From positions 1 to 55,695 of the IMG/VR virus record IMGVR_UViG_3300044691_000698: 55,695 nt of DNA. One strand, given 5' to 3'. The stretch comes from a virus. The translations under genes and the position numbers were made by a program. Of this stretch, positions 34,137-55,695 are shown piece after piece (position 1 is the first letter of the stretch; each line of letters begins with the position of its first letter). The notes under the pieces are model-generated. The model saw only the letters and a program-made list of their open reading frames with translations, did no database searches and was not told the DNA's origin.

Positions 34137-34748
34137 ATGCGAAAATTCCCTGCTTTTACGACGATATTTTGTCTAAATTTGCTCGTGTTGATTGCTGATT
34201 CGATCTTCGGCATCGGAATGAATCTCGCAGTTACGCCTGTCGATTTTATGGGAATCCCTACATTGCATGGGCTTGTGACGCTTATCACGCATATGTTCAC
34301 TCATGCGAATTTTGATCATTTTTTTGGGAATTTTCTATATGTGACGCCAGCTGCGCTTTATTTAGAGCATAAACTTGGCTCTCTCAAATTTACCTTGATT
34401 TGGCTGTTATCCGGACTAGGCGCAGTACTTTTATTTATGCTGGTACCGCATGTGAATCCATGGGGATCTCTAATAGGCGCGTCCGGTGCTGCTTCCGGAG
34501 TCTTTGCAATGGCCTGTCTCGAAATTAACGAGTCGCGCTTTGTAAAAGCCTTGGCGCTTTGTACGCTCGGAGTGATTTTCATTCAACAGCTGATTCCGGC
34601 TATTTATTCTAGCTTTTTGCCTCTACAAATAGCTTATTGGGCGCATGTAGGCGGAATCCTTACCGCGCTTGTTATCAAAGCTGTTTGTCCGGCGCCTCTA
34701 TTGAAGGAGTTAGATGATTCTACCGATTCTGCTATTAATGGCGCTTAA
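34137..34748 (+). CDS. Rhomboid family intramembrane serine protease
   Basis: 203 residues with six or so membrane helices. HMFTHANFDHFFGNF (52-66) is the conserved TM2 region. The catalytic Ser is in GASG (S116) and the catalytic His in HVGG (H170). Rhomboids cleave substrates within the bilayer. GGAGA precedes the ATG. Rare in phages; substrate unknown, but lysis, envelope alteration or anti-superinfection roles are conceivable. Confidence 0.88.
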   Translation: MRKFPAFTTIFCLNLLVLIADSIFGIGMNLAVTPVDFMGIPTLHGLVTLITHMFTHANFDHFFGNFLYVTPAALYLEHKLGSLKFTLIWLLSGLGAVLLFMLVPHVNPWGSLIGASGAASGVFAMACLEINESRFVKALALCTLGVIFIQQLIPAIYSSFLPLQIAYWAHVGGILTALVIKAVCPAPLLKELDDSTDSAINGA

Positions 34749-35266
34749 TCTTTCTTCGCTTCTGATTCTTCTACTAGCGTGGAAACAGCGACATCCATCC
34801 CGACAGCTTGCTCGGATTGAGATGCGACGATCGCTGAAACTTGTTCAAGGTTCGAAGGCCCGTTTAGATCTTCAAGACTAGCTAATTTCACAACGTCAGC
34901 TTCCGAAATTTCAATAAGCCCGATATCTGCTAAAGCGACGATTGCCTTTTGGACTATTCCAACTGTCAGTCTTCGCTTTTTTGCTATTTCCCTCAATGTA
35001 GCTGCGGGGTTGTAACATAGATAACCATAAACAGCGATTTCGACCGGCGTGAACCCGCCACAAAATACAAAACCCAGCATTCGGACGCTGTTGTCGGTCA
35101 ATTCGGATCGCAGTCCTTCTCCGTTGAGACGTGCCAAAACCAGTAGGCCAAATTCCATCGCTTTTAGGCTACGTTCGAAAATAGCGTTTGGAAGCTCGAT
35201 ATATCCATTATTTAAATCGAAAATAGTTAGTTGTTTCTTTTCAACAACAGCAGTTTGTTCGCTCAT
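34745..35266 (-). CDS. Winged-helix-like DNA-binding protein
   Basis: 173 residues. ATLREIAKKRRLTVGIVQKA..ALADIGLIEI (about 88-120) is a winged helix-turn-helix, and the N-terminal part resembles replication/initiator-type helix domains. Possible transcription or replication regulator. Its 3' end overlaps the convergent rhomboid by four bases; its start is coupled to the upstream metallophosphoesterase. Confidence 0.6.
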   Translation of the reverse strand: MSEQTAVVEKKQLTIFDLNNGYIELPNAIFERSLKAMEFGLLVLARLNGEGLRSELTDNSVRMLGFVFCGGFTPVEIAVYGYLCYNPAATLREIAKKRRLTVGIVQKAIVALADIGLIEISEADVVKLASLEDLNGPSNLEQVSAIVASQSEQAVGMDVAVSTLVEESEAKKD

Positions 35267-41684: not shown

Positions 41685-41890
41685 ACCAGCCTTCTCATTA
41701 CACTGCTGGTGGAATCGAAACGATTGATTTCATTCGTGCTCGGTTGAGTAAAGAACAGCTCAAAGGCGCTTATCTTTTTAATATTATAAAATATTGCAGC
41801 AGAGCCGACCTTAAAAATGGAATCGAAGACTACAAAAAGGCGCAGGTATATCTAAAATGGCTAATAGAACTCGAAGAAAAAGGGATCTAA
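41669..41890 (+). CDS. DUF3310 protein
   Basis: 73 residues: QPSHYTAGGIETIDFI, FNIIKYCSRADLKNGIEDYK and AQVYLKWLIEL are the full signature of DUF3310, a small phage protein often next to nucleotide-metabolism genes; biochemical role not established. Overlaps both neighbours. Confidence 0.85.
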   Translation: MSDKVNQPSHYTAGGIETIDFIRARLSKEQLKGAYLFNIIKYCSRADLKNGIEDYKKAQVYLKWLIELEEKGI

Positions 41891-42504
41891 GTAGAGCAGG
41901 TACCGTCCACGGTCGCCTAACAATTCTTACACCGACCACAAAGGACGGTCAAAACGCTTGGAATTGTTTGTGTGTTTGTGGAAACCAACACTTGGTAAAA
42001 GTAGGTGACTTTAAAGCGACCATAAGTTGTGGGTGTTATCGAAGAGAAATATCCGGTGCTAGAAACAGGAAGCACGGAATGCACAATAGCAAAGCTTACT
42101 ACGCATGGACTTCGATGAGGAAACGCTGCCTAAATCCAACCCATAAAGCCTATAAAAATTACGGAGGCCGAAGTATCACAATTGCAGCTCGATGGGATCT
42201 CTTTGCAAACTTTATTATAGACATGGGGATGCCTAAAGAAGGGCAATCACTAGATCGAATAAACAACGATGAGGGTTACTCACCACAAAATTGTCGTTGG
42301 ACCGATTTTAAAACTCAAAATAATAATAGAAGGTCTGCCCGGATTTTCAATACAGCCCATGGAAGAATATCGTTAACTGAAGCCGCCAAAATATCAGGCC
42401 ACAGCCCACAAACTCTTTCATGGAGACTAAAAGGTATTGGAATGACAATTGATGTCGCTATGACGACACCTAAATTTAGAAATAGAAAAGTAACTAGCGC
42501 TTGA
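41857..42504 (+). CDS. HNH homing-type endonuclease
   Basis: 215 residues. N-terminal zinc region (CLCVCGNQHLV...ISCGCYRRE), then YYAWTSMRKRCLNPTHKAYK, YGGRSITIAARW, LDRINNDEGYSPQNCRW, the HNH-like core of many phage mobile endonucleases, and a C-terminal helix-turn-helix (LTEAAKISGHSPQTLSWRL). Likely a selfish endonuclease; its 34-base overlap with DUF3310 suggests later insertion. Confidence 0.8.
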   Translation: MANRTRRKRDLSRAGTVHGRLTILTPTTKDGQNAWNCLCVCGNQHLVKVGDFKATISCGCYRREISGARNRKHGMHNSKAYYAWTSMRKRCLNPTHKAYKNYGGRSITIAARWDLFANFIIDMGMPKEGQSLDRINNDEGYSPQNCRWTDFKTQNNNRRSARIFNTAHGRISLTEAAKISGHSPQTLSWRLKGIGMTIDVAMTTPKFRNRKVTSA

Positions 42505-44276: not shown

Positions 44277-44345
44277 TTTGTGGGCCTAGGTCGCGCCCTT
44301 CCTAGAATTAATCCGGTAATTGCATTCCAACCGGATACCCACAAA
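44277..44345 (-). ncRNA. Structured RNA element E
   Basis: Closing stem TTTGTGGG/CCCACAAA (44277-44284, 44338-44345) encloses ATCCGGT/ACCGGAT (44311-44317, 44330-44336) and CTAGG/CCTAG (44286-44290, 44301-44305): a clean three-way junction about 69 nt long. Strand assigned from the surrounding operon. Element F at 47048 has the same closing stem. Confidence 0.5.
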
Positions 44346-44378
44346 TTGTTTTACACCGAGACCGGATTGGAAAAAAGG

Positions 44379-44516
44379 TTTGGCGGCCTCCGGGGATCTC
44401 ACCCGTCGCCTTGGACATTAGGATCGGGCTTGAACCATCCTGCCTGCCGCTGCGTACTTTTTCTATTTCGGCTTTATCCAAGTAGGCGATGCTTTTTGAG
44501 CCGCGCCGCCGCCAAA
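44379..44516 (-). ncRNA. Structured RNA element A
   Basis: Closing stem TTTGGCGGC/GCCGCCAAA (44379-44387, 44508-44516), matching element G. Inside are CTTGGA/TCCAAG and a T-arm-like GGTTCAAGCCC on the minus strand. tRNA-like pieces are visible, but no full cloverleaf. Confidence 0.5.
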
Positions 44517-44518
44517 TT

Positions 44519-44653
44519 ATTTTACCGAGGCCGGGCTTGATTCCGGCTGAGCGACGTATGTTTGTCTGGGGAATCAATTCGACTCTATCCCCGATGTTGC
44601 CCCATCGTCGCCGCATTGTACGCTGCGTGTCCTTCCACGCCGCTCGGTAAAAT
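44519..44653 (-). ncRNA. Structured RNA element B
   Basis: 11-bp closing stem ATTTTACCGAG/CTCGGTAAAAT. Minus strand order: CGGCGTGGAAGG with a GCGTG/CACGC hairpin, CGATG/CATCG and GGGGA/TCCCC hairpins, then a T-arm-like GCCGG-AATCAAGC-CCGGC directly before the closing strand. Element C shares both ends with a different, longer middle. Confidence 0.55.
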
Positions 44654-44655
44654 TG

Positions 44656-44748
44656 TTTTGTAGGCTGGTAGTTCACTTGCGCCCACGTCAGTCAGACCAC
44701 TCCAGCGAGTCTGCGTCACTACGGTTAACGTCTCAGGGACCTACAAAA
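44656..44748 (-). ncRNA. Structured RNA element D
   Basis: 9-bp closing stem TTTTGTAGG/CCTACAAAA. Internal hairpin on the minus strand CAG-ACTC-GCTG-GAGT-..CTG. It abuts element B and begins right after the terminator of the 44825 gene. Confidence 0.5.
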
Positions 44749-44750
44749 TT

Positions 44751-44792
44751 CTAAAAAAGGATGTACCGATTTATTTAAACACTTCTCGGTAC
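44751..44792 (-). terminator. Terminator after the 44825 gene
   Basis: Minus strand stem GTACCGA/TCGGTAC (44792-44786, 44769-44763) followed by TTTTTT. Confidence 0.65.
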
Positions 44793-44824
44793 CACAAGTG
44801 TAACAAACAAGGTTCGGAACGGAA

Positions 44825-45040
44825 CTACTGTGCTTTAGGATCGCAGGTTATAAACCCATTTTGTCGCTTATTGTGCGTCCGGTATAGGCATTCAAGATGC
44901 TTAATCGCAGCGTCGTAGCCATAATGATAGTGATTGGCTTCATTGCGCGCTTGGCTCAAGTTTGCAAAAACAGCAAGCGTTGTTACGATCAAAAGAATCA
45001 ACGCAAGACTAAAAACCGCAGTAGCTAGTAGGTTACGCAT
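44825..45040 (-). CDS. TM protein with Cys-containing periplasmic tail
   Basis: 71 residues. One N-terminal membrane helix (VFSLALILLIVTTLAVFA) then a hydrophilic region with two Cys (LECLYRT..ITCDPK). GGGAG precedes the ATG; the upstream small ORF overlaps it by 16 bases. Unknown. Confidence 0.65.
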   Translation of the reverse strand: MRNLLATAVFSLALILLIVTTLAVFANLSQARNEANHYHYGYDAAIKHLECLYRTHNKRQNGFITCDPKAQ

Positions 45041-45198
45041 TCGTTCTCTCCCTTTAGGTAAGTGCTTTCTAGAAAAAGTAAATCGTCGTAGGCTTGGATT
45101 AATTTGAAATGTCTCACTAACGCTCGGTCACTTTCGTACCGTCGTAGCATTCGAAAGGAAACAGCGAGACGCAGCAGCATGAATTCTTTCCTATTCAT
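45025..45198 (-). CDS. Small basic helical protein
   Basis: 57 residues (MNRKEFMLLRLAVSFRMLRR...). It overlaps the preceding stop by 8 bases and the next gene by 16, consistent with coupling. No recognised domain. Confidence 0.5.
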   Translation of the reverse strand: MNRKEFMLLRLAVSFRMLRRYESDRALVRHFKLIQAYDDLLFLESTYLKGENECVTY

Positions 45199-45373
45199 GA
45201 AAAGTCTCTTCTGGCTCGGTGAGTTTTACCGTTAGCTGTTCTTGAATTAGTCCGTCGATCAGGAATCGGGCCGCTGCTAATGTTTTGGCGGGAACTAAAT
45301 TTGAACCGACATGAACGTAATACATGCTCATGTAAGGGTTAGTGGAGATTTTATAACTTTTATATTCCAACAT
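45191..45373 (-). CDS. Small unknown protein
   Basis: 60 residues; beta hairpin (YKSYKISTNPYMSMYYVHVG) then a helix (AKTLAAARFLIDGLIQEQL), reminiscent of small phage proteins that annotate as hypothetical. GAGG 5 bases ahead. Confidence 0.6.
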   Translation of the reverse strand: MLEYKSYKISTNPYMSMYYVHVGSNLVPAKTLAAARFLIDGLIQEQLTVKLTEPEETFHE

Positions 45374-45392
45374 ACGTGCCTCGTGAGATCCT

Positions 45393-45500
45393 TTATTTAC
45401 GGTTTAATAACGTTACGATATTCAAAACGGCCAAGACTAAGACGCCAGTCGTTCCAGCGAAGTAATAAACGCCTGCGAAACATAAAAGATCTACAAACAT
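45393..45500 (-). CDS. 35-residue single-TM protein
   Basis: MFVDLLCFAGVYYFAGTTGV plus LVLAVLNIV forms one long membrane helix. Ribosome site CGGAG; first gene behind operator 8. Confidence 0.6.
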   Translation of the reverse strand: MFVDLLCFAGVYYFAGTTGVLVLAVLNIVTLLNRK

Positions 45501-45541
45501 AAATTCTCCGGTTTCGAGTTACGTTAAGTTTATCAGGATTT

Positions 45542-45572
45542 ATTGCAAATGCAATATTATTCCGAATGCAAT
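45542..45572. promoter_or_regulatory. Operator site 8 (double dyad)
   Basis: ATTG-caaatg-CAAT-att-ATTC-cgaatg-CAAT. Minus promoter TTGCAT-16-TAAACT overlaps it and leads to 45500. Confidence 0.7.
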
Positions 45573-45599
45573 AAACTGCGGGCACGCAAATAGCTAATA

Positions 45600-45785
45600 T
45601 TATTGACTAAACGCACCCGCGCAGTCGTTCTCAATCGCTTCCACCGTGCAGTCGTCGCAGATCTCTTTGTTAGCATCAAGACTGAATTCATCCTGACTGC
45701 CATACATGTCGCATGAGAGACATTGTTCATGAAATTTAAAATCATTCGGCGTTTCGGCACATTGGCAACAAATGCATTCTCTCAT
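45600..45785 (-). CDS. Cys-rich zinc-binding miniprotein
   Basis: 61 residues with CICCQC, HEQCLSCD and CDDC: likely two zinc knuckles. ATGA overlap with the upstream gene. Unknown partner. Confidence 0.65.
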   Translation of the reverse strand: MRECICCQCAETPNDFKFHEQCLSCDMYGSQDEFSLDANKEICDDCTVEAIENDCAGAFSQ

Positions 45786-46138
45786 TTTTCCTCCATTGCT
45801 TTAAGCGCCGCTAAACAAATAGCGAGCGGTGCTGTTTCTGCGCGCACATCAGGAAAGGCGACTAGGTCGTCAACTGCTTTTCTCCCAATCCAAACGTCGA
45901 ATCCTTCCTCAGAATTAGCCAACGCCCATTGGTAGCCCTTGGCCGATACAGCTGACAACACTGCAAACGCTGCTGCGATGTCCGACGAGTAGTGTGGAAC
46001 TGTAATCTGTTGAGGTATGCCGCCCGGTACTAAGTGTCTGTGTTCAGGGTTAGCCCAATCTAGTTCGGTCCACTCCCAACCCATTACTTTCTCGGCAATT
46101 TCACGATCAAGATCGCGTCCAGCGCCTAATGTTTGCAT
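45782..46138 (-). CDS. Phage ABA-sandwich domain protein
   Basis: 118 residues. REIAEKVMGWEWTELDW, IPQQITVPHYSSDIAAAFAV and a helical end match the small phage alpha-beta-alpha sandwich family (PF18066), common in early regions; function unknown. Confidence 0.75.
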   Translation of the reverse strand: MQTLGAGRDLDREIAEKVMGWEWTELDWANPEHRHLVPGGIPQQITVPHYSSDIAAAFAVLSAVSAKGYQWALANSEEGFDVWIGRKAVDDLVAFPDVRAETAPLAICLAALKAMEEK

Positions 46139-46275
46139 CGTCCACTCCTTCTACATTTGCCTGCTGGTGTTGGGGCGGAGCTGGGAGCACCAAAAATTGA
46201 CACAAGCAGTAAAATAAAAAACGGCGAAAGCGGTATTGCGATGCATGCAAAAACTACTAAAATATCATGATTCAT
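46126..46275 (-). CDS. Small TM protein
   Basis: 49 residues from the ATG at 46275 (GGGAG ahead; longer in-frame start rejected). One or two membrane segments (VVFACIAIPLSPFFILLLVS) and a basic Cys-containing tail. Confidence 0.6.
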   Translation of the reverse strand: MNHDILVVFACIAIPLSPFFILLLVSIFGAPSSAPTPAGKCRRSGRCKH

Positions 46276-46502
46276 TTCGTTTCTCCCTTTTCTAAAGCTT
46301 CGCGGGCTCGAGTCCCGCATTCCTTCGCCACTTTCGAGAGTTCTTTTATGTGACCATCTTTATCTGGAAAGTGATTTTCCTCCTTCGCGTAAAACTTCAG
46401 CGCGGTTTCGAGAGATGCGATTCGCTCCGCCTGAGAGTGAATAGTTTTCCAAGGACTGTCAGGAGCTTGGTTATATAGGGCAGGGTCTTTTGGATCATTC
46501 AT
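46272..46502 (-). CDS. Ead/Ea22-like small protein
   Basis: 76 residues: AERIASLETALKFYAKEENH and TRAREALEKGE are typical of phage early Ead-like proteins. GGAGAG precedes the ATG. Upstream 46503-46583 contains repeated GTTACTTT but no clear promoter. Confidence 0.65.
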   Translation of the reverse strand: MNDPKDPALYNQAPDSPWKTIHSQAERIASLETALKFYAKEENHFPDKDGHIKELSKVAKECGTRAREALEKGETK

Positions 46503-46583
46503 TTCTTCTCTCCTTTACTTTGTTACAAAGTAACCACAATACCCTCACTACGTGGTAAGAAAGTAACATTGATTTACAAGGCC

Positions 46584-46658
46584 TTAAGTCAAAGTTCTTG
46601 CAAGATGGATAACCAAAGCTGTAGTCACCATAAAAATTAACCAGTAAATAACAAACAT
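46584..46658 (-). CDS. 24-residue TM miniprotein
   Basis: MFVIYWLIFMVTTALVIHLA... begins 26 bases after RNA element C. Its leader TTAACAATTGGGAG is repeated before the 47283 gene. Confidence 0.5.
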   Translation of the reverse strand: MFVIYWLIFMVTTALVIHLARTLT

Positions 46659-46683
46659 AATTACTCCCAATTGTTAAAATTTT

Positions 46684-46880
46684 TACCGAGGCCGGGCTTG
46701 ATACCGGCTTAGTCGTTTTTACGTGACCCTCATGTGTCGGAGCACTTTGGTCACAACTAAGTCTCCAAACGTCTTCCGAATCCCGTTCAGATATGCGTGT
46801 CCCCTGTCAGGTTAGTTTAACCACACGTATTAAGTGATTCGTGGTCTTATCACACCTGCAGCCTTCCACGCCGCTCGGTA
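46684..46880 (-). ncRNA. Structured RNA element C (longer homolog of B)
   Basis: Closing stem TACCGAG/CTCGGTA. Shares TACCGAGCGGCGTGGAAGG at the 5' end and GCCGG-TATCAAGC-CCGGCCTCGGTA at the 3' end with element B, while its middle is about 60 nt longer, as if a peripheral hairpin were inserted between GGAAGG and ACACGC. Confidence 0.55.
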
Positions 46881-46881
46881 C

Positions 46882-46897
46882 TTTTCCTTGCGGAAAA
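46882..46897 (-). ncRNA. GNRA-tetraloop hairpin
   Basis: Minus strand TTTTCC-GCAA-GGAAAA, between RNA elements G and C; GCAA is a stable GNRA loop. Confidence 0.55.
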
Positions 46898-46909
46898 CTG
46901 TTAAATTGT

Positions 46910-46993
46910 TTTGGCGGGCTAGGTATTTTGACCATCTATATTTCCTAGCGCCCATGTAACTAGTGATCTGGGTGATCGCGTGCCACCGCCAAA
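46910..46993 (-). ncRNA. Structured RNA element G
   Basis: Closing stem TTTGGCGG/CCGCCAAA, same as element A. Inner stems GGTG/CACC and GCTAGG/CCTAGC. Confidence 0.5.
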
Positions 46994-47047
46994 TATTCGC
47001 TAACGCTCAATGTCGCTTCCTTACGGTCGCTCCTGTTTGCGCTTCGC

Positions 47048-47109
47048 TTTGTGTGGGCCGTGTCGCCGTAGGGGGTTACACGATTACTTGGTCCTACCCA
47101 ACCCACAAA
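47048..47109 (-). ncRNA. Structured RNA element F
   Basis: Closing stem TTTGTG/CACAAA extended by GG/CC with a small bulge, like element E. Inner CGTGT/ACACG or GTAGG/CCTAC alternatives. 46994-47047, between F and G, is GC-rich with AGCG repeats. Confidence 0.45.
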
Positions 47110-47112
47110 TTC

Positions 47113-47283
47113 TTAAAGTTTCTCATTAACAAAACACGTTTTTATGTGCTCTTCGGTCTTTTTATCGCCCACGCAATTTAATAGATGAATGCGACAAGTG
47201 CGAACATCGTTAATGTTATATTGCCAATTGGTCGGGGCACCACACCATAATGCTATGGCGGCCAATAACTGTAATATGCTCAT
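47113..47283 (-). CDS. Small secreted or TM protein
   Basis: 56 residues from the ATG at 47283 with GGGAGG. The hydrophobic N-terminus (MSILQLLAAIALWCGA) could be a signal or anchor; three more Cys follow. Ends 4 bases before RNA element F. Confidence 0.55.
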   Translation of the reverse strand: MSILQLLAAIALWCGAPTNWQYNINDVRTCRIHLLNCVGDKKTEEHIKTCFVNEKL

Positions 47284-55568: not shown

Positions 55569-55695
55569 ATGTAAACCACAGAAACCAGTGGAAACCAGTA
55601 AAGTGGTTTCCAGTATTCGTCAATGTTTTCGCACACTTTAAGTCCCCTAAAAACAAGGAAACCACTCTATTACTATATATATATATATATATATA
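55569..55695. repeat. Terminal direct repeat (right copy)
   Basis: Exact copy of bases 1-127, showing that the contig closes into a circle through the origin region. Confidence 0.9.

Follow-up and report, generated by a model that had tools for sequence, protein, structure and literature searches.

Two arrays of closed elements in a virus genome

The window analyzed here is the whole virus record IMGVR_UViG_3300044691_000698 (55,695 bases). It has a 127-base direct repeat at both ends and is therefore probably a complete genome. Seven closed elements lie in it in two arrays (E, A, B, D; then C, G, F), tiled end to end with very short spacers (2 nt each for A–B and B–D when extended stems are counted). 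Elements B and C are members of an undescribed phage and prophage RNA family, termed elbow RNA here. The original prediction, made from the sequence alone, had reported two arrays of closed, tRNA-like elements, and all seven elements were recovered. Five perfect Watson–Crick closing stems of at least 8 bp fall within the two arrays (8 bp in E, 9 in A, 11 in B, 9 in D, and 8 in G); block shuffles gave an expectation of 1.75.

Small open reading frames (ORFs) with Shine–Dalgarno sequences make up a dense minus-strand operon, and the arrays fill two gaps in it, at 47113–46658 and at 44825–44057. Thus, no reading frame runs through them as a conserved gene on the RNA strand; such a frame had been named as an argument against the prediction. 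An Rfam scan of the array region returned zero matches at E ≤ 10. ARAGORN made zero tRNA calls in the arrays at normal thresholds, and at 70% thresholds it gave only low-scoring calls with inconsistent anticodons and strands. The string GCCGG..CAAGCCCGG recalls the twister ribozyme; Rfam gave zero matches to this or another ribozyme.

A sole syntenic relative, IMGVR_UViG_3300013772_000021 (L029), was found via its capsid protein. It has no arrays, and an Eco57I-type restriction-modification methylase gene (L029:6100-7752) occupies their position, indicating that the arrays are accessory. Pattern scans with DNA polymerase and terminase confirmed no relatives of the window. Judged from the methylase, the array locus resembles an accessory or defence-related hotspot.

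Elements B and C belong to an undescribed RNA family

B and C are identical over 19 nt at one end, and at the other they agree in 30 of 32 nt. They differ in the middle, as originally predicted; in addition, C has some 60 nt inserted into the loop of its second helix, which form an extra domain. The fold z-score of B on the minus strand is listed in Table 1; that of C was about −3.

The exact 19-nt B/C end gave zero matches as a query. The first clue to a homolog was a weak blastn match (24 exact bases, E 0.3) in Acidovorax phage AP1. There, a perfect 14-bp closing stem surrounds GCGTG[GAAGGA]CACGC ... GCTGG[AATCAAGC]CCAGC (loops in brackets), and the closing stem and 3' hairpin are altered by compensation relative to B. 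The elements share one consensus order: closing stem P1, a linker of C followed by G or A, hairpin P2, a middle, an A, hairpin P3, and the 3' strand P1'. P1 is an uninterrupted stem of 6–20 bp, free in sequence. P2 has 5 bp and the loop GANGGA; P3 has 5 bp, usually the loop UNUCRANY, and 0 nt before P1'. The middle is hypervariable (45–208 nt), and the whole element measures about 100–270 nt. The linker was CG or CA in 151 of 153 copies, and A preceded P3 in 152 of 153.

The exact P2 pattern was present in at least 119 IMG/VR stretches, compared with 18 for the reversed control pattern. A scan of IMG/VR for the P3 hairpin served as a second entry route. Most pattern-scan matches were complete elements, and about 165 distinct copies were collected from phages and prophages, all counted among the matches listed. 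A structural descriptor gave 162 matches and none in 4.76 Mb of reversed sequence. Covariance model (CM) R1 was built from 25 homologs, with the window sequence excluded from training. In the window it matched B and C only, B on the minus strand only. B was a full match to the family and C a match with the P2-loop insertion; A, D, E, F, and G failed.

Seven cultured phages carry the element between genes: Acidovorax AP1, Caulobacter DMCA, Komagataeibacter phiKX1/2, Iodobacter PhiPLPE, Alcaligenes QDWS595, and Pseudanabaena Pan3. These carriers make it experimentally testable. Eight named or binned GTDB matches (Chromobacterium, Bordetella, Ancylobacter, Pseudoroseomonas, Comamonas, beta proteobacterium AAP99, a Rhizobiales metagenome-assembled genome, MAG, and a Bdellovibrionaceae MAG) are presumably prophages. 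Most phages that were tested with CM R1 had 1–2 copies; two bacterial genomes of 5.5–6.1 Mb had just 1 and 2. No non-tRNA family of Rfam 15 covers the window region or the homologous elements. The motif strings were not found as a phage RNA motif in the open-access papers searched; subscription papers and preprints lay outside this search, and an earlier description is possible. A structured RNA in at least about 160 phage or prophage loci with no Rfam 15 match represents a sizeable gap in phage annotation.

Copies within one phage (B and C; L135; L058) have common P1 and P3 and wholly different middles. Tandem family pairs were seen in L133 (5069-5189, 5215-5334), L135 (1703-1830, 1916-2036), L058 (5230-5378, 5391-5546), and L163 (2305-2476, 2482-2586). 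The tandem copies in L135 and L058 have the same or a similar closing stem and unrelated middles, and the second copy in L163 is an enlarged-loop variant member (31.5 bits). The middle is a folded domain with many GNRA-type tips (CCGAAAGG, for example) and has no constant hairpin or motif. Complementarity of either invariant loop to the middle (kissing or pseudoknot) was not enriched.

Compensatory changes and strand of the molecule

Circularity was avoided by anchoring on one hairpin and then testing for the other. Anchored on P2, P1 of at least 7 bp was present in 80 of the 116 distinct matches listed (control, 2). A perfect 5-bp P3 directly preceded P1' in 72 of these 80, with the A before it in 71 of the 72. 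Anchored on P3, the GANGG loop lay exactly at P1+2+5 in 45 of 53 matches listed (control, 4/265), and 37 of the 45 were fully paired with several stem sequences. In 60 diverse copies, compensatory two-sided changes were observed at all 18 pairs of the three helices. The covariation score was 0.739, versus 0.164 for shuffled and at most 0.113 for slid alignments. A lack of covariation in homologs had been named as grounds against the prediction; the changes found in P1, P2, and P3 are the opposite. These results establish the three helices and the invariant loops, and we hold the family and its helices to be real with near certainty.

Departures from pairing on the sense strand comprised 44 G.U and 9 A.C cells, indicating that the conserved molecule is RNA and fixing its strand (minus in the window). 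The same imbalance bears on whether the elements are DNA sites, namely attC-type recombination sites or mobile units of cassette type, whose ends are constant and whose middles can be exchanged. Constant ends around unrelated middles, including two copies per phage (B and C; L135; L058), and the lack of arrays in the syntenic relative would fit such units. However, an excess of G.U over A.C on one strand is a sign of RNA, P1 is free in sequence, unlike transposon ends or attC, and no constant recombinase partner was found. Neither the G.U–A.C symmetry nor the fixed end sequence of an integron attC or other DNA site was seen, and we consider a DNA-level element very improbable.

Similarity to tRNA and the tRNA neighbourhood

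The helix order matches that of tRNA (RF00005): acceptor, positions 8-9, D-arm, anticodon plus variable region, T-arm. Like tRNA, the element has a 2-nt linker before a D-arm-like hairpin, GG in the P2 loop, and a 5-bp T-arm-like P3 with UCRA that, by sequence and pairing, stacks directly on the closing stem. The T-loop residues U55 C56 R57 A58 are kept in the P3 loop variants TTTCGAGC, TGTCGAAT, TATCAATC, and others, which have an additional nucleotide following U54. Unlike tRNA, the element has no anticodon arm (5-bp stem, 7-nt loop), and a variable domain of 45–208 nt lies there. Its closing stem of 6–20 bp replaces the fixed 7-bp acceptor, it has no ARAGORN or Rfam match, and it cannot decode. 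For B and C, the predicted T-arm-like loops in something other than a normal tRNA therefore stood. The element is best called a new family within the broad kind of tRNA-like RNAs.

Association with tRNA arrays exceeded chance. A tRNA lay within 100 nt in 10 of 135 cases (about 3 expected), always on the same strand as the element, and in L049 two copies are interleaved with tRNA-Leu, -Lys, and -Arg genes. Other closed stems were also enriched in the flanks of family members elsewhere (50 vs 22.6). A few middles are or contain a tRNA that passes the Rfam cut-off (L196:3788-3858, L140:1812-1884, L251:5928-5993; Pan3 is included).

The tRNA-like arms, adjoining tRNAs, and nested tRNA sequences are what decaying or hypervariable phage tRNA genes without function would leave. 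Across more than 150 distinct copies, P2 and P3 change by compensation while the loops, the linker, and the A ahead of P3 are almost invariant, which decay would not preserve; the extra T-loop nucleotide and the missing anticodon arm are constant as well. We give such relics the least credence of all the alternatives.

Several other RNAs adjoin family members. A tRNA-like RNA at L160:1674-1753 has a perfect 12-bp acceptor and an odd anticodon loop and is not chargeable as a normal tRNA; a similar one with a 10-bp closing stem lies to the right of the element in L245. In Alcaligenes phage vB_Af_QDWS595 (L254:3565-3912), a phage-encoded permuted tmRNA (RF04321 111 bits, beta_tmRNA 93.8 bits) adjoins the elbow RNA in a tRNA region. 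Two further neighbours are Rfam motifs of unknown function: an abiF RNA (L047:7856-7891) lies 12 nt downstream of a family member, and a Burkholderiales-2 RNA (L051:2490-2565) adjoins another.

The other five elements

None of the elements A, D, E, F, and G is a significant family member, and the array as a whole is explained only partly. CM R1 placed A and G at their exact borders on the minus strand with scores that were not significant (Table 1), placed D and F weakly, and did not place E. The fold z-scores of A (−1.8 to −2.4) and G (−1.6 to −2.0) were weak, and those of D (−0.1 to −0.8) and F (Table 1) were at shuffle level. The stem of F has only about 6 bp plus a bulge. The similarity between A and G and between E and F is mainly in the closing-stem sequence (8–16 nt), with no common interior.

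The original prediction thus held in part. A tRNA-like RNA of an unknown phage class is borne out for B and C by homologs in many phages, compensatory changes, and three helices, and not for the other five. Of the three families proposed among the seven elements, B/C alone emerged as one. The fold z-scores favour structure in E, B, and C, weakly in A and G, and not in D and F.

All seven elements might still form one class of tRNA-like decoys, with diverged arms in A, D, E, F, and G. The common closing-stem style and tiling, the exact placement of A and G, the existence of enlarged-loop variants (C and the second L163 copy), and the enrichment of closed stems in family flanks agree with this. 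The scores of A and G, the missing or weak placement of E, D, and F, and the lack of a common interior motif do not, and a single class seems unlikely.

Table 1. Coordinates of the seven elements and of the parts of B and C in the window (z, fold z-score)
Feature	Position	Strand	Basis
Element B, complete family member, 135 nt	44519..44653	minus	CM R1 61.4 bits, E=5.1e-11; z −4.65
B, P1 5' strand ATTTTACCGAG, pairs with 44519-44529, 11 bp	44643..44653	minus	sequence, stem scan
B, P2, D-arm-like hairpin GCGTG[GAAGGA]CACGC after 2-nt linker CG	44625..44640	minus	sequence; family-conserved
B, hypervariable middle, 77 nt, last base is the invariant A	44548..44624	minus	
B, P3, T-arm-like hairpin GCCGG[AATCAAGC]CCGGC, 0 nt to P1'	44530..44547	minus	sequence
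B, P1 3' strand	44519..44529	minus	stem scan
Element C, family member with ~60-nt P2-loop insertion	46681..46883	minus	CM R1 31.9 bits, E=8.5e-5; ends common with B
C, P2 5' strand GCGTG and loop start GAAGG; 3' strand CACGC at 46799-46795	46862..46871	minus	CM alignment
C, P3 hairpin GCCGG[TATCAAGC]CCGGC	46691..46708	minus	CM alignment, B/C end identity
Element A, closed by 9 bp	44379..44516		CM 10.3 bits (E 0.17), minus strand; stem scan
Element D, closed by 9 bp, interior folds no better than shuffles	44656..44748		z; stem scan
Element E, three-way junction closed by 8 bp, well folded	44277..44345		z −3.2 to −3.4; stem scan
Element G, closed by 8 bp	46910..46993		CM 8.4 bits (E 0.43), not significant; stem scan
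Element F, weak closed element, ends resemble E	47051..47110		z −0.9; 14-nt repeat with E end

Proposed explanation

Our preferred explanation, with a probability of about 0.55, is that B and C are two copies of an RNA gene family of phages, so far undescribed, in which a tRNA-elbow fold serves as a compact closed scaffold. P1 would take the place of the acceptor stem, P2 that of the D-arm, and P3 that of the T-arm stacked on P1. Loop–loop contacts corresponding to G18–U55 and G19–C56 would lock the elbow, and the hypervariable folded domain would sit in the anticodon-arm position. In the tRNA elbow, a G19–C56 pair and a contact between G18 and Psi55 create a flat surface that serves the ribosome, RNase P, RNase Z, and other partners (PMC4810234). 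Judged from the conserved sequences, a three-dimensional elbow is quite probable. The element may offer a handle on why phages keep RNAs beside tRNAs.

Several points weigh against this explanation. The P3 loop has 8 nt rather than 7, often with A or G after U54, and the linker is C followed by G or A rather than U8–A9. The GG and UC are invariant, so the loop contact is beyond the reach of covariation. The 100% paired fraction in alignment A1 arose by construction, since pairing was required for selection; the unbiased measure is the anchored-hairpin test. Only a few middles contain a tRNA, T-arm-like motifs were not enriched in middles generally, and no constant protein partner was found among the family loci.

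The RNA is a candidate discrete stable transcript, and the chances that it is a stand-alone scaffold carrying cargo appear about even. The unrelated middles on common P1 and P3 (B and C; L135; L058) are only consistent with a middle of cargo type. A closed, nuclease-resistant scaffold with a tRNA-like surface would present a changeable domain. It would be a natural counterpart of the engineered tRNA scaffold, an RNA support whose cargo can be exchanged. The engineered scaffold of Ponchon and Dardel reportedly holds cargo RNA in the anticodon-arm place, on acceptor, D, and T arms. Elbow RNA differs in being natural and phage-encoded and in its longer closing stem of free sequence. The engineered scaffold is cited in PMC3753655.

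Instead of free RNAs, the elements could be cis-acting parts of polycistronic phage mRNAs, as intercistronic stabilisers or tRNA-like processing signals for RNase P, RNase Z, or RNase III, without function once released. Both window arrays lie in gaps of one minus-strand operon, elements alternate with tRNA genes in L049, and RNase P and RNase Z recognise elbow-like folds (PMC4810234). However, there is no fixed downstream gene. A same-strand gene that we take to be terminase-like, from our own reading of a Walker motif (its PHROG is of unknown function), lies downstream at about one-fifth of loci, often more than 1 kb away. In both Caulobacter phage DMCA and Pseudanabaena phage Pan3, a convergent gene follows the element, which disfavours a 5' regulator. 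Long spurious ORFs overlap the elements in GC-rich contigs, so a crude measure of nearest-ORF orientation carries no weight. In addition, cleavage geometry like that of tRNA is not kept with a P1 of up to 20 paired bases, and a large variable middle would be superfluous in a signal. We consider a cis-acting signal unlikely.

For the scaffold RNA, the leading candidate role is that of a tRNA mimic or decoy that would occupy a host tRNA-binding factor or nuclease during infection. The phage tRNAs that counter tRNA-cutting defences are functional: they resist cleavage or make good the loss of cleaved tRNA (PMC11555353, PMC10264068). Elbow RNAs are likewise phage-encoded, tRNA-related, and found in tRNA-rich regions, and the purpose may be common, whereas they cannot decode. 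A decoy against host factors that handle or cut tRNA would agree with the tRNA-like surface, with the position in tRNA arrays, and with the turnover seen in the middle, and phage tRNAs are known to blunt such defences; we propose it tentatively. Equally speculative is a modular RNA arsenal, in which elbow scaffolds with exchangeable domains, in arrays with tRNAs and further closed tRNA-like decoys, would sequester host factors that handle or cut tRNA. It might extend across phages of alpha-, beta-, and other proteobacteria and one cyanobacterium.

Other RNAs resemble the family in part. GOLLD and ROOL, too, come from phages and prophages, have no known function, and often lie near tRNA islands, and GOLLD reportedly has tRNAs nested in linkers, like those nested in elbow-RNA middles. 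They are far larger and have Rfam models, whereas elbow RNA is smaller and has a tRNA-elbow core; the GOLLD and ROOL models gave zero matches on the window or homologs. As in tmRNA, a tRNA-like domain has its anticodon part substituted by another RNA domain. Unlike tmRNA, the element has no ARAGORN or Rfam tmRNA call and no alanyl acceptor, and no tag reading frame was found. The tmRNA in L254 is a gene separate from the element.

Other features of the window

An HNH endonuclease gene (41857-42504), some 1.8 kb away from the first array, seems mobile, since its homolog is located elsewhere in the relative (G001 34513-35064). A palindrome-like pair, TTTATTGCAAATGCAATA / TATTCCGAATGCAATAAA, at 45539-45575 is a possible operator. 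Repeated AGTGGTTTCC / GGAAACCACT motifs (22-270 and 55602-55666) adjoin the 127-base terminal repeat and perhaps mark an origin or end-recognition region.

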